Assembly (NCBI RefSeq): GCF_036226365.1
Contig: NZ_CP108462.1
Location: 4,400,501 to 4,464,500, forward strand
Source of the DNA: Streptomyces sp. NBC_01262
GTDB lineage: Bacteria > Actinomycetota > Actinomycetes > Streptomycetales > Streptomycetaceae
DNA: 64,000 nucleotides
Direction: 5' to 3'
Shown one piece after another: positions 21,799 through 27,011 of this stretch. Every line of letters begins with the position of its first letter. Position 1 is the first letter of the stretch. The translations under genes were made by a program, and so were the position numbers. The notes beneath the pieces were generated by a model. It did not search any database. It was not told where the DNA came from and worked only from the letters and a program-made list of their open reading frames with translations.

Positions 21799-24724
<2,926 letters not shown>

Positions 24725-24728
<4 letters not shown>

Positions 24729-24970
24729 GAGTCCACCCGCACGGTGAAATCTTCGATCACGGTGTTGGCGAGGAAGGTCTCCGCCATCTCGTGGATACGG
24801 GCGAGGGCGGCATCGTCGACCGGCCCCTCGACTTCGAGTTCAAAGCGCTTGCCCTGCCGTACATCCGCGATTCCCTTGAACCCGAGACGCGGCAGCGCAC
24901 GCTGCACCGCCTGGCCCTGCGGGTCGAGGATCTCCGGCTTGAGCATGACGTCGACTACGACGCGTGCCAC
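24725..24970 (-). CDS. purS: Phosphoribosylformylglycinamidine synthase subunit PurS
   Basis: 81 residues from GTG 24970, preferred over GTG 24976 because GGGAG lies at good distance and homologs start (M/V)ARVVVDVML. PurS is a small alpha/beta dimer that bridges PurL and PurQ in the FGAM synthase complex. Signature: [29 protein letters not shown] and the terminal [10 protein letters not shown]. It is the first gene of purS-purQ-purL; a perfect palindrome lies 57-72 bases upstream. Confidence 0.95.
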
Positions 24971-25026
24971 GGTCACTCCCGGTGGTGGTGTTGCGTGAGA
25001 CGTGCCTCAGCGTACCCCGTTCGAAA

Positions 25027-25042
25027 ATCTACTCGCGTAGAT
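25027..25042. promoter_or_regulatory. Palindrome upstream of purS
   Basis: ATCTACTCGCGTAGAT is a perfect 6-4-6 dyad 57-72 bases before the purS start; a TACGCT resembling a -10 follows it. A related half (TCTATGCGCGTA) lies in front of purF. It is a good candidate repressor site for the purine operons; the regulator is not in this window, as far as I can tell. Confidence 0.5.
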
Positions 25043-25154
25043 ATGGGCGGAAATCGGAACGGAAATCCGGCGGTCCCGATTGCGGCCAGGACACGCTGGG
25101 GAAATATCCTGTGGCTTCGTTTGGCAATGTTTCCCGATGTACAAATGAAAAGTA

Positions 25155-25184
25155 TTGACCTCGGCCGGTCGGATTCGATACAAC
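25155..25184 (+). promoter_or_regulatory. Predicted promoter of lsr2
   Basis: TTGACC (25155-25160) and TACAAC (25179-25184) are separated by 18 bases and lie 52 bases upstream of the lsr2 ATG, in an unusually AT-rich stretch (about 25080-25190). This fits a vegetative-sigma promoter. Confidence 0.55.
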
Positions 25185-25236
25185 AACGCACGTCATCACA
25201 GGTGCGAACCTGTTCCGCACGAAAGGACCGATATCC

Positions 25237-25554
25237 ATGGCGCAGCGCGTAGTGGTCACCCTCTCCGACGACCTCGATGGCGGCCAGGCGGAGGAAACGA
25301 TCACTTTCGGCCTGGACGGGAAGTCCTACGAGATCGACCTTTCCTCCATCAATGCGGACAAACTGCGCGACGCGCTCTCGCCGTACGTCGAGGCCGGCCG
25401 CAAGCACGCACGCTCCGGCAAGACCTACAAGCGCACCTCCGTCGCCCCCGACCCGGCGGCGGTCCGGGCCTGGGCGCGCTCGAACGGCTTCGACGTGCCG
25501 CCGCGCGGCCGCATCCCGAAGAAGGTCTACGAGGCCTTCGCCGAGGCCAGTTGA
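25237..25554 (+). CDS. lsr2: Lsr2 family nucleoid-associated protein
   Basis: 105 residues from ATG 25237 with GAAAGGA upstream. The N-terminal dimerisation domain (AQRVVVTLSDDLDGGQAEETITFGLDG..., EIDLSS) and the C-terminal DNA-binding helices ending in RAWARSNGFDVPPRGRIPKKVYEAF are classic Lsr2. The RGR motif of Lsr2 inserts into the minor groove of AT-rich DNA; here it reads PPRGRIP. Lsr2 silences horizontally acquired and specialised-metabolite genes in actinobacteria. Streptomyces usually carry two lsr2-type genes, and I cannot tell which one this is. Its upstream region is itself AT-rich, so autoregulation is plausible. Confidence 0.93.
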   Translation: MAQRVVVTLSDDLDGGQAEETITFGLDGKSYEIDLSSINADKLRDALSPYVEAGRKHARSGKTYKRTSVAPDPAAVRAWARSNGFDVPPRGRIPKKVYEAFAEAS

Positions 25555-25661
25555 GCCGACCGGGCCTCGCCCCGAGTCGATTGGACAGCCACCCCCGCTG
25601 ATCCGCTAGAGTCTGAGGCACGCCGAGGGCAGGGCCGAAAGGCCAGGTCAGCGGAGGTCAC

Positions 25662-25733
25662 GCGGGTGTAGCTCAGTAGTAGAGCGCCCCCCTTCCAGGG
25701 GGGAGGCGCAGTGTGCAATTCCTGTCACCCGCT
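25662..25733 (+). tRNA. tRNA-Gly (UCC) with atypical T-arm and D-loop
   Basis: Acceptor GCGGGTG pairs with CACCCGC, the D-stem is GCTC/GAGC, and the anticodon stem is five C-G pairs around CTTCCAG (anticodon TCC), so it is clearly a glycine tRNA. The T-arm is abnormal: CAGTG-TGCAATT-CCTGT, where only two of five pairs can form. The loop reads TGCA in place of TTCG/TTCA, so the GTPsiC element is GTGC. The D-loop has AG where G18G19 should be. Either a decaying pseudogene or a tRNA that avoids the ribosome, as cell-wall glycyl-tRNAs of staphylococci do. The next two genes are normal tRNA-Gly(GCC). Confidence 0.8.
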
Positions 25734-25789
25734 CTGACTGCAGTACGTGTTCCGGTTGCTCGAAAGTGATCGGGTACAGTAGTCGCCGT

Positions 25790-25861
25790 GCGGACGTGGC
25801 TCAGTGGTAGAGCATCACCTTGCCAAGGTGAGGGTCGCGAGTTCGAATCTCGTCGTCCGCT
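25790..25861 (+). tRNA. tRNA-Gly (GCC), copy 1
   Basis: Acceptor GCGGACG pairs with CGTCCGC, the anticodon loop TTGCCAA gives GCC, and the T-arm GAGTTCGAATCTC is normal. TACAGT at 25775-25780 is a good -10 element just upstream. Confidence 0.95.
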
Positions 25862-25870
25862 CTGTGCTTC

Positions 25871-25906
25871 ACGAAGGCCCCGGATCATCCGATCCGGGGC
25901 CTTCGT
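25871..25906 (+). terminator. Terminator after tRNA-Gly copy 1
   Basis: A perfect 16-bp stem (ACGAAGGCCCCGGATC at 25871-25886 with its complement at 25891-25906) and loop ATCC, 9 bases after the tRNA. Confidence 0.85.
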
Positions 25907-25985
25907 CGTGTCTTCGTCGTGTCCGTGCCAATCGGGTTTGGCACTCGCGCGGGGCTCGGTTAGAGTAGGCCTCGCAACACCGCAA

Positions 25986-26058
25986 GCGGACGTAGCTCAG
26001 TTGGTAGAGCGCAACCTTGCCAAGGTTGAGGTCGCCAGTTCGAACCTGGTCGTCCGCT
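25986..26058 (+). tRNA. tRNA-Gly (GCC), copy 2
   Basis: The acceptor stem is identical to copy 1, the anticodon loop TTGCCAA gives GCC, and the T-arm CCAGTTCGAACCTGG is canonical. It differs from copy 1 in the D-arm and anticodon stem, so the two are not recent duplicates. Confidence 0.95.
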
Positions 26059-26064
26059 CAGAGC

Positions 26065-26100
26065 CCGAGGGCCCCGGATCGAATGATCCGGGGCCCTCGG
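26065..26100. terminator. Bidirectional terminator between tRNA-Gly and purC
   Basis: A perfect 16-bp stem (CCGAGGGCCCCGGATC at 26065-26080, complement 26085-26100) and loop GAAT, 6 bases after the tRNA and 12 bases after the convergent purC stop. Confidence 0.85.
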
Positions 26101-26111
26101 CATTTCCGCGA

Positions 26112-27011
26112 TTACCAGGAAGTCCCGGTCAGCCGCTCGTACGCCTCGATGTACTTGGCGCGGGTCTGCTCGACCACCTCGGCCGGCAGGGCCGGCGGCG
26201 GCTGCTCGCTCGCGCGGTCCCAGCCGGAGGCCGGGGAGGTCAGCCAGTCGCGCACGAACTGCTTGTCGTACGAGGGCTGGGAGCGGCCGGGCTCCCACTG
26301 CTCGGCGGGCCAGAAGCGGGACGAGTCGGGGGTGAGCACCTCGTCGGCGAGGGTGAGGACGTCACCGGCGTCGAAGCCGAACTCGAACTTCGTGTCGGCC
26401 AGGACGATCCCCCGCTCGCGGGCGATGTCACGGGCCCGGCCGTATACGGCGAGCGTGGCCTGACGCAGTTGCGCGGCGGTGTCCGCGCCGACCTGGCGGG
26501 CGACCTCCTCGTACGACACGTTCTCGTCGTGCTCACCGACCTCGGCCTTTGTGGCGGGGGTGAAGATCGGCGCGGGCAGCTCGGAGCCGTCGGCCAGTCC
26601 CTCCGGAAGGGCGACCCCGCACACCGTGCGGTCCTGGTTGTACTCGACGAGGCCGGAGCCGGTCAGATAGCCCCGGGCGACGCACTCGACCGGCACCATG
26701 CGCAGGGACTTGCAGACCGTGGTGCGGCCCGCCCAGTCGGCGGGGGCGCCGGCGGGCAGTTCGGTGGAGATGACGTGGTGCGGCACGAGGTCGGCGAGCT
26801 GGTCGAACCACCACAGCGAAAGCCGCGTCAGCACCCGGCCCTTGTCGGGGATCTCGGTGGGCAGCACCCAGTCGTAGGCGGAGATTCTGTCGCTGGCGAC
26901 CATCACCAGCTCCCCGGCCTCGTTCTGGTACAGGTCGCGCACCTTTCCGGTGTGCAGATGCACCAGGCCCGGCACCTGCACCGGCTCGGGCTTTTCGACG
27001 AATCCGGACAT
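26112..27011 (-). CDS. purC: Phosphoribosylaminoimidazole-succinocarboxamide synthase
   Basis: 299 residues from ATG 27011, the longer (~300-residue) actinobacterial/eukaryotic-type SAICAR synthase. Motifs: GKVRDLYQNEAGELVMVASDRISAYDWVL at the ATP site, VECVARGYLTGSG, TPATKAEVGEHDENVS and the late ADTKFEFGFD. It couples CAIR with aspartate using ATP. It appears monocistronic: the next minus-strand gene upstream ends 73 bases away, and the palindrome seen before purS and purF is not present here. Confidence 0.97.
   Translation of the reverse strand: MSGFVEKPEPVQVPGLVHLHTGKVRDLYQNEAGELVMVASDRISAYDWVLPTEIPDKGRVLTRLSLWWFDQLADLVPHHVISTELPAGAPADWAGRTTVCKSLRMVPVECVARGYLTGSGLVEYNQDRTVCGVALPEGLADGSELPAPIFTPATKAEVGEHDENVSYEEVARQVGADTAAQLRQATLAVYGRARDIARERGIVLADTKFEFGFDAGDVLTLADEVLTPDSSRFWPAEQWEPGRSQPSYDKQFVRDWLTSPASGWDRASEQPPPALPAEVVEQTRAKYIEAYERLTGTSW

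Follow-up and report, generated by a model that had tools for sequence, protein, structure and literature searches.

Downstream of lsr2 in the window analysed here, a 64,000-nucleotide stretch of Streptomyces DNA, lies a tRNA-Gly(UCC) gene with an atypical T-arm and D-loop, which raises the question of whether its product serves the ribosome, has been set aside for another use of glycine, or is no longer functional. An earlier note on the sequence had taken it for a possible cell-wall tRNA, with a decaying pseudogene as the alternative, and had sought the reason for ribosome avoidance in a lost tRNA elbow. The assignment as tRNA-Gly(UCC) stands, as ARAGORN and the Rfam tRNA model (53.7 bits, E 3.8e-10) agree on it, with the end at 25733/34 (Table 1).

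Table 1. Features of the atypical tRNA and its surroundings, in window coordinates
Feature	Position	Strand	Basis
lsr2, upstream neighbour	25237..25554	+	Pfam Lsr2; 30/30 same-genus loci
Possible promoter, TTGGACA (25581-25587) and TAGAGT (25607-25612)	25580..25612	+	Conserved in 30 genus loci
5' leader with GGCC-GAAA-GGCC hairpin	25613..25661	+	Conservation
Second tRNA-Gly(UCC), atypical; GCGGGTG acceptor stem, U73, anticodon UCC at 25694-25696	25662..25733	+	ARAGORN, Rfam
D-loop AGUAGUA; A18 (25678) replaces G18, G19 (25679) retained	25675..25681	+	Sequence, Infernal, comparison with L072
Anticodon loop CUUCCAG; Watson-Crick 32-38 pair, C-G, or U-A in some relatives	25692..25698	+	32-38 comparison, covariation
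T-arm GCAG-[U]-G / UGCAAUU / CCUGU; bulged U 25712, G55 25715, A51 (25710)-U63 (25723)	25708..25725	+	Infernal, T-stem parse
Canonical tRNA-Gly(GCC), neighbour	25790..25861	+	ARAGORN, Rfam
Canonical tRNA-Gly(GCC), neighbour	25986..26058	+	ARAGORN, Rfam
purC, downstream neighbour	26112..27011	-	NCBIfam; 21/30 same-genus loci

The acceptor, D and anticodon stems are intact, as the earlier note had described them, and GTGC indeed stands in place of GTTC, which none of the other tRNAs among the genome's 66 lacks. The T-stem, of which just two of five pairs had been thought to form, had been read in the wrong register: both Infernal and our own parse give a 4-nt variable loop (AGGC) followed by five pairs, one of them G.U (49-65), plus one bulged U, and the geometry is that of a 7-bp acceptor stem with five T-stem pairs and a bulge rather than 8/4. 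In the T-loop T54, C56, A57 and A58 are retained, G55 being the sole change. The supposed loss of G18G19 is half right, in that G18 is replaced by A18, but G19 is still there, as is C56 (25716), with which it pairs. Two further features had escaped notice, namely the A51-U63 pair in the T-stem and the Watson-Crick C32-G38 pair in the anticodon loop, the latter being found in three of the 66 tRNAs of the genome, the atypical tRNA and two identical tRNA-Pro(GGG) genes. GTTC, G18G19 and G-C or C-G at 51-63, the marks of an ordinary elongator tRNA-Gly, are thus all absent.

The 9.74-Mb, one-contig genome contains 66 Rfam tRNAs, and ARAGORN likewise named 66. Whether a canonical tRNA-Gly(UCC) exists alongside the atypical one, a point left as a question by the earlier note, can be answered in the affirmative, as one with GG and GTTC lies at 6547252-6547322 of the genome (L034), together with three Gly(GCC) and one Gly(CCC) elsewhere; it is also found in 35/35 same-genus genomes with 97-100% identity. 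In the 37 window ORFs of at least 150 codons and high GC3, GGA accounts for 96 of 1340 glycine codons (7.2%), hence codon use demands no second UCC tRNA.

A sequence of 73 nt matches over its full length, with 89-100% identity, in 34 of 35 genomes of the same genus (g1 in the sample, of which g17 is the largest genus), the lone miss being a genome that is 71% complete (G015). The T-arm conservation among relatives on which the earlier note had made its reading depend was found: the T-arm pattern, searched with up to three mismatches, is present in 40/40 family members and in 0/354 other genomes of the class, and the pattern for any Gly-tRNA with GTGC in 39/40 and 0/354, respectively. A stricter full-length pattern applied at the level of the order returned 85/182 family members and 0/15 others, where the former count reflects an over-strict pattern and the 40/40 of the T-arm search is the fair family count. 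The gene is single-copy in most relatives examined, with two or three copies in 3/40 family members (G080, G094 and G099). In 30 genus loci 90% of the columns within the tRNA are invariant, compared with 15% upstream and 1.7% downstream, and the adjacent Lsr2 proteins diverge by up to 27% from that of the window. Among 21 distinct atypical sequences, a set that takes in those of Intrasporangium and Propionibacteriaceae, 99.1% of cells pair and double-sided changes occur in 9/22 stem pairs (27 cells), most of them located in the anticodon stem and at 32-38, each of these three values being reached by 0/500 shuffles; pair types, by contrast, were no more numerous than in the shuffles (17 versus 17.2, with 367/500 shuffles reaching 17). 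Within the family the T-arm hardly varies, so that its pairing is supported by invariance rather than by covariation.

For a decaying pseudogene one could cite the covariance score, which at 53.7 bits is below the 72.6 and 70.1 bits of the two neighbouring tRNAs, yet the covariation, the near-invariance, the intact stems and the existence of relatives with two or three copies all speak against decay. Conservation and covariation rule the pseudogene out, and its probability is negligible. The gene is a real, selected second tRNA-Gly(UCC) whose T-stem is bulged and contains A51-U63, and whose elbow is A18/G55. Conservation seems to apply to the presence of an extra T-stem nucleotide and not to which nucleotide it is. 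In Mangrovactinospora (L110:6105-6176) and Streptomycetaceae MP113-05 (L123:5985-6056) the bulge persists, but it has shifted (U after position 51) or consists of a C. Carriage by phages or plasmids was considered and rejected, as a phage search gave no match to the atypical tRNA and a plasmid collection a single 78% match, in a 2.6-Mb Acetoanaerobium record.

The conserved TTGGACA...TAGAGT block and the leader hairpin suggest that the tRNA has a promoter of its own; a promoter scan did not list this block, the spacing of 19-20 being outside the scanner's range. Beyond the genus, lsr2 also precedes the atypical tRNA in Mangrovactinospora (L110) and Streptomycetaceae MP113-05 (L123), two named members on which the designation of the family as Streptomycetaceae is based. 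The conserved leader hairpin could favour a different role, in which the tRNA would donate glycine to, or act uncharged as a sensor in, some other process, such as a further ligase that depends on Gly-tRNA, the regulation of transcription or development, or the production of tRNA fragments. Precedents are provided by Streptomyces natural-product pathways that use aminoacyl-tRNAs, as described in an excerpt of one report (PMC12945691), and by a Bacillus pseudo-tRNA that affects cell wall morphology, according to an excerpt of another (PMC3399842). The presence of the tRNA in 40/40 family members argues rather for a housekeeping role, and Rfam finds nothing besides the three tRNAs within 24500-27000 (E <=1), so such a role appears quite improbable. 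A link to wall genes through gene neighbourhood was rejected as well: none is present among the ORFs scanned, and the tRNA adjoins lsr2 and purC. Around the similar tRNAs of Intrasporangium and Propionibacteriaceae (see below), no FemAB gene was found among the ten neighbouring ORFs scanned, nor was lsr2 found beside them.

Whether a changed elbow keeps a tRNA off the ribosome can be judged from its distribution. One family sequence, from genus g2 (L072), combines the bulge and A51-U63 with G18 and U55. A18 and G55 are found in every other family sequence read, so that positions 18 and 55 change together. A collection of 84,980 species genomes was scanned for Gly-tRNAs with GTGC by a pattern that on purpose barred a T before GTGC, so that the typical bulged form is absent from the result. 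The scan yielded 65 stretches with 72 sequences, from staphylococci, many Patescibacteria and similar metagenome-assembled genomes (MAGs), two Intrasporangium species, a Propionibacteriaceae MAG, Mangrovactinospora, Streptomycetaceae MP113-05 and three others. A18-G19 occurs in 33/33 sequences from Patescibacteria-like MAGs and 5/5 from actinobacteria, compared with 0/31 from staphylococci. In two small-genome MAGs, for which ARAGORN named 45/46 (G586) and 42/45 (G590) of the Rfam tRNA hits, A18/G55 is found in the sole Gly(GCC) recovered and in an initiator-like tRNA-Met (L193 and L202 in G586), and in G590, a Candidatus Parcubacteria, also in an Ile(UAU) (L227, L229 and L231 for its three); contigs of a UBA1400 MAG (L116, L119 and L124) carry it in Gly(GCC), Gly(UCC) and Gly(CCC). 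The A18/G55 tRNAs of G586 and G590 presumably take part in translation, hence the best view of A18-G55 is that of a functional substitute for G18-U55, one that would preserve the shape of the elbow. Elbow loss as a sufficient cause of ribosome avoidance, the mechanism put forward in the earlier note, is rejected on the strength of these MAG tRNAs, and of L072, in which the bulge accompanies a normal elbow. In small-genome bacteria A18/G55 may represent a different pairing at the tRNA elbow; a search of open-access full texts gave no paper on such a replacement.

If A18-G55 is compatible with translation, the atypical tRNA might itself be a specialised elongator that reads GGA and GGG on the ribosome with a working elbow and a tolerated bulge, perhaps under a certain condition or for a subset of genes. 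The presumed translation with A18/G55 in G586 and G590, the retention of G19 and C56, and the intact anticodon and acceptor stem are consistent with this. However, the GTGC Gly(GCC) tRNAs of the MAGs keep G51-C63 and the atypical tRNA does not, its bulge and A51-U63 are kept despite the normal elbow in L072, and the canonical Gly(UCC) already serves the codon that makes up 7.2% of glycine codons; an elongator of this kind is unlikely.

Attention is thereby drawn to pair 51-63, which is G-C or C-G in 41/41 canonical GTTC Gly-tRNAs parsed, all with G49.U65, and in 0/77 atypical UCC tRNAs, with the reservation that related sequences in this comparison are not independent. The canonical set consists of five from the genome itself, 12 from L162-L175, six from L076 and L078-L082, and 18 from L205-L224; L162-L175 and L205-L224 were chosen from hits to a canonical query, a choice that favours resemblance, and L173, L174, L217 and L222, being stretches without a tRNA, were dropped. 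Among the atypical UCC tRNAs, 51-63 is A-U in 43/43 Streptomycetaceae (L072 included), G.U in the two from Intrasporangium, UxC in the one from Propionibacteriaceae, and A-U in 30 and G.U in one of the 31 from staphylococci. G51-C63 was parsed in 33/34 non-staphylococcal GTGC Gly(GCC) sequences, the 34th (L105) being the same when read by eye. Pair 49-65 is G.U in 41/43 Streptomycetaceae and A-U in the remaining two (L073 and L110), which carry both staphylococcal T-stem changes. An exception to the rule that GTTC means G-C at 51-63, and outside the count of 41, is a second Gly(UCC) from another class member with FemAB (L077, G059:C209), with GTTC but U51-A63 and C32-G38; it could be a tRNA of the wall type whose elbow is normal. 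In S. aureus, the non-proteinogenic tRNAs are described as having G49-U65 and G51-C63 changed to A49-U65 and A51-U63, with weak EF-Tu binding, and the three of them as having UU or CU at 18-19 (excerpt of PMC4052509); a similar account is given in an excerpt of PMC9976931. Taken together, pair 51-63, and not the elbow, separates suspected wall tRNAs from elongators.

The tRNA-Gly(UCC) used for peptidoglycan in Staphylococcus shares with the atypical tRNA the status of an extra UCC isoacceptor, G55 (GTGC), A51-U63 and C32-G38 (S. aureus isoacceptor, excerpt of PMC4052509), the last being present in 31/31 staphylococcal sequences. It differs in positions 18-19, which are UU or CU in S. aureus whereas A18 and G19, or G18G19 in L072, are found in Streptomycetaceae; in A49-U65, where Streptomycetaceae mostly have G.U; in the T-stem bulge, which sets the Streptomycetaceae tRNA apart; and in copy number, with one as a rule versus three such isoacceptors in S. 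aureus, as given in the same excerpt (PMC4052509). The atypical tRNA would function in the manner of the staphylococcal wall tRNAs, but it is not classed as one of them, because it has neither the replacement of both G18 and G19 nor A49-U65. Closer in the elbow are the Gly(UCC) of two Intrasporangium species and a Propionibacteriaceae MAG, which share A18, G19, G55, the UCC anticodon, C32-G38 and similar D and anticodon arms, and whose genomes likewise carry a canonical Gly(UCC) and FemAB, but which have no T-stem bulge and G.U or UxC at 51-63. The Gly(GCC) of Patescibacteria-type MAGs share A18-G19 with G55 (31/31 GCC sequences) and differ in the GCC anticodon and G51-C63, and they are the sole Gly(GCC) found in the two genomes examined, where they presumably elongate. 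An extra T-stem nucleotide is also reported for selC* tRNA-Cys and a minor tRNA-Sec (excerpt of PMC7609411), which, however, have an 8/4 acceptor/T arrangement and carry other amino acids, in contrast to the 7/5 of the atypical tRNA.

The enzyme that could use such a tRNA is encoded in the genome. In Streptomyces the peptidoglycan contains one bridging glycine, added by FemX. The single FemAB gene (373 aa, Pfam FemAB 155.6 bits) has as its best solved match 6snr, 'Lipid II:glycine glycyltransferase' (3.3e-31), which we take to be S. aureus FemX; its 101.5 bits are far below the 500-bit NCBIfam cut-off for lysine alanyltransferase FemX. S. coelicolor FemX and VanK are named as ligases using aminoacyl-tRNAs in an excerpt of PMC4052509. 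FemAB was detected in 40/40 family members and 139/354 other genomes of the class (E <=0.001), with 177/394 genomes over the cut-off, and its occurrence in 139 outside genomes without the T-arm pattern means that FemAB ligases need no such tRNA in general. Of 13 tested genomes with GTGC Gly-tRNAs 12 have FemAB, namely 5/5 actinobacteria, each of which also has a canonical Gly(UCC), and 7/8 small-genome MAGs (hand-picked from the scan, six with Patescibacteria-type names and two named 'bacterium'), the latter not being counted as evidence, as this would require a base rate for comparison. Both Intrasporangium species with the similar tRNA are among those with a canonical Gly(UCC) and FemAB; they are species other than I. 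calvum, the type strain of which is stated in an excerpt of PMC3035309 to have a wall of the A3-gamma type, bridged by triglycine. Immediately after the FemAB gene of the genome comes an alanine-racemase-like ORF (L070:74-1510, minus strand; Pfam Ala_racemase_N).

A wall role for the atypical tRNA is plausible, because a FemAB ligase is present, A51-U63, C32-G38 and G55 are shared with staphylococci, and a similar tRNA occurs in Intrasporangium, the genus of the triglycine-bridged I. calvum. On balance, comparison of sequences makes it probable that the tRNA is a dedicated second tRNA-Gly(UCC) of Streptomycetaceae supplying glycine for non-ribosomal use, most likely for the single-glycine peptidoglycan bridge formed by a FemX-type ligase. 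Several observations run against the wall-donor reading: FemAB occurs without the T-arm pattern outside the family, no wall genes are neighbours, 49-65 is mostly unchanged, A18/G55 is present in presumably translating tRNAs, C32-G38 is found in tRNA-Pro(GGG), L077 is an exception, the genome's own FemX falls below the NCBIfam cut-off, and the pair-type count is not above shuffles.

As for how a wall donor would work, the tRNA may be transcribed from its own promoter behind lsr2, as the conserved upstream block would indicate. GlyRS recognises G1-C72, C2-G71, G3-C70, C35, C36 and U73, and with all of these intact the tRNA would be charged by the ordinary enzyme. Its handover to EF-Tu would be weakened by A-U instead of G-C or C-G at 51-63 and by a bulged nucleotide near the EF-Tu contact region, where the effect of A51-U63 is taken from an excerpt of the S. 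aureus report (PMC4052509) and that of the bulge is inferred. The free Gly-tRNA could then be used by FemX on the peptidoglycan precursor, and the A18/G55 elbow would stand in structurally for G18-U55 without being what keeps the tRNA off the ribosome. Charging, weak EF-Tu use and delivery to FemX are thus predicted steps. A more far-reaching version is tentative and rather doubtful: the tRNA would act off the ribosome only, its bulge would be both an EF-Tu anti-determinant and a FemX recognition element, a recurrent, elbow-independent 'EF-Tu-escape code' (second UCC, non-G-C 51-63 and C32-G38) would be shared with Intrasporangium, Propionibacteriaceae and Staphylococcus, and A18-G55 would be a second translation-competent elbow closure.

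Should the wall-donor reading hold, the T-stem pair 51-63 rather than the elbow would be indicated as the key change, and another bulged T-stem would join the known tRNA architectures. As a conserved, mostly single-copy gene in Streptomyces-type bacteria, it would make the question directly testable. In open-access full texts, no paper describing the atypical tRNA in its title or at the start of its abstract was found.

Two minor observations concern tRNA genes found in clusters. Where the atypical tRNA is repeated side by side, the copies show compensated differences in the anticodon stem in G099 (L087), G094 (L088) and G080, and are alike in G181. At 2695646-2696114 of the Streptomyces genome itself (L031) lies a low-scoring cluster (55-59 bits) of five tRNAs, two Gln(CUG) and three Glu(CUC).
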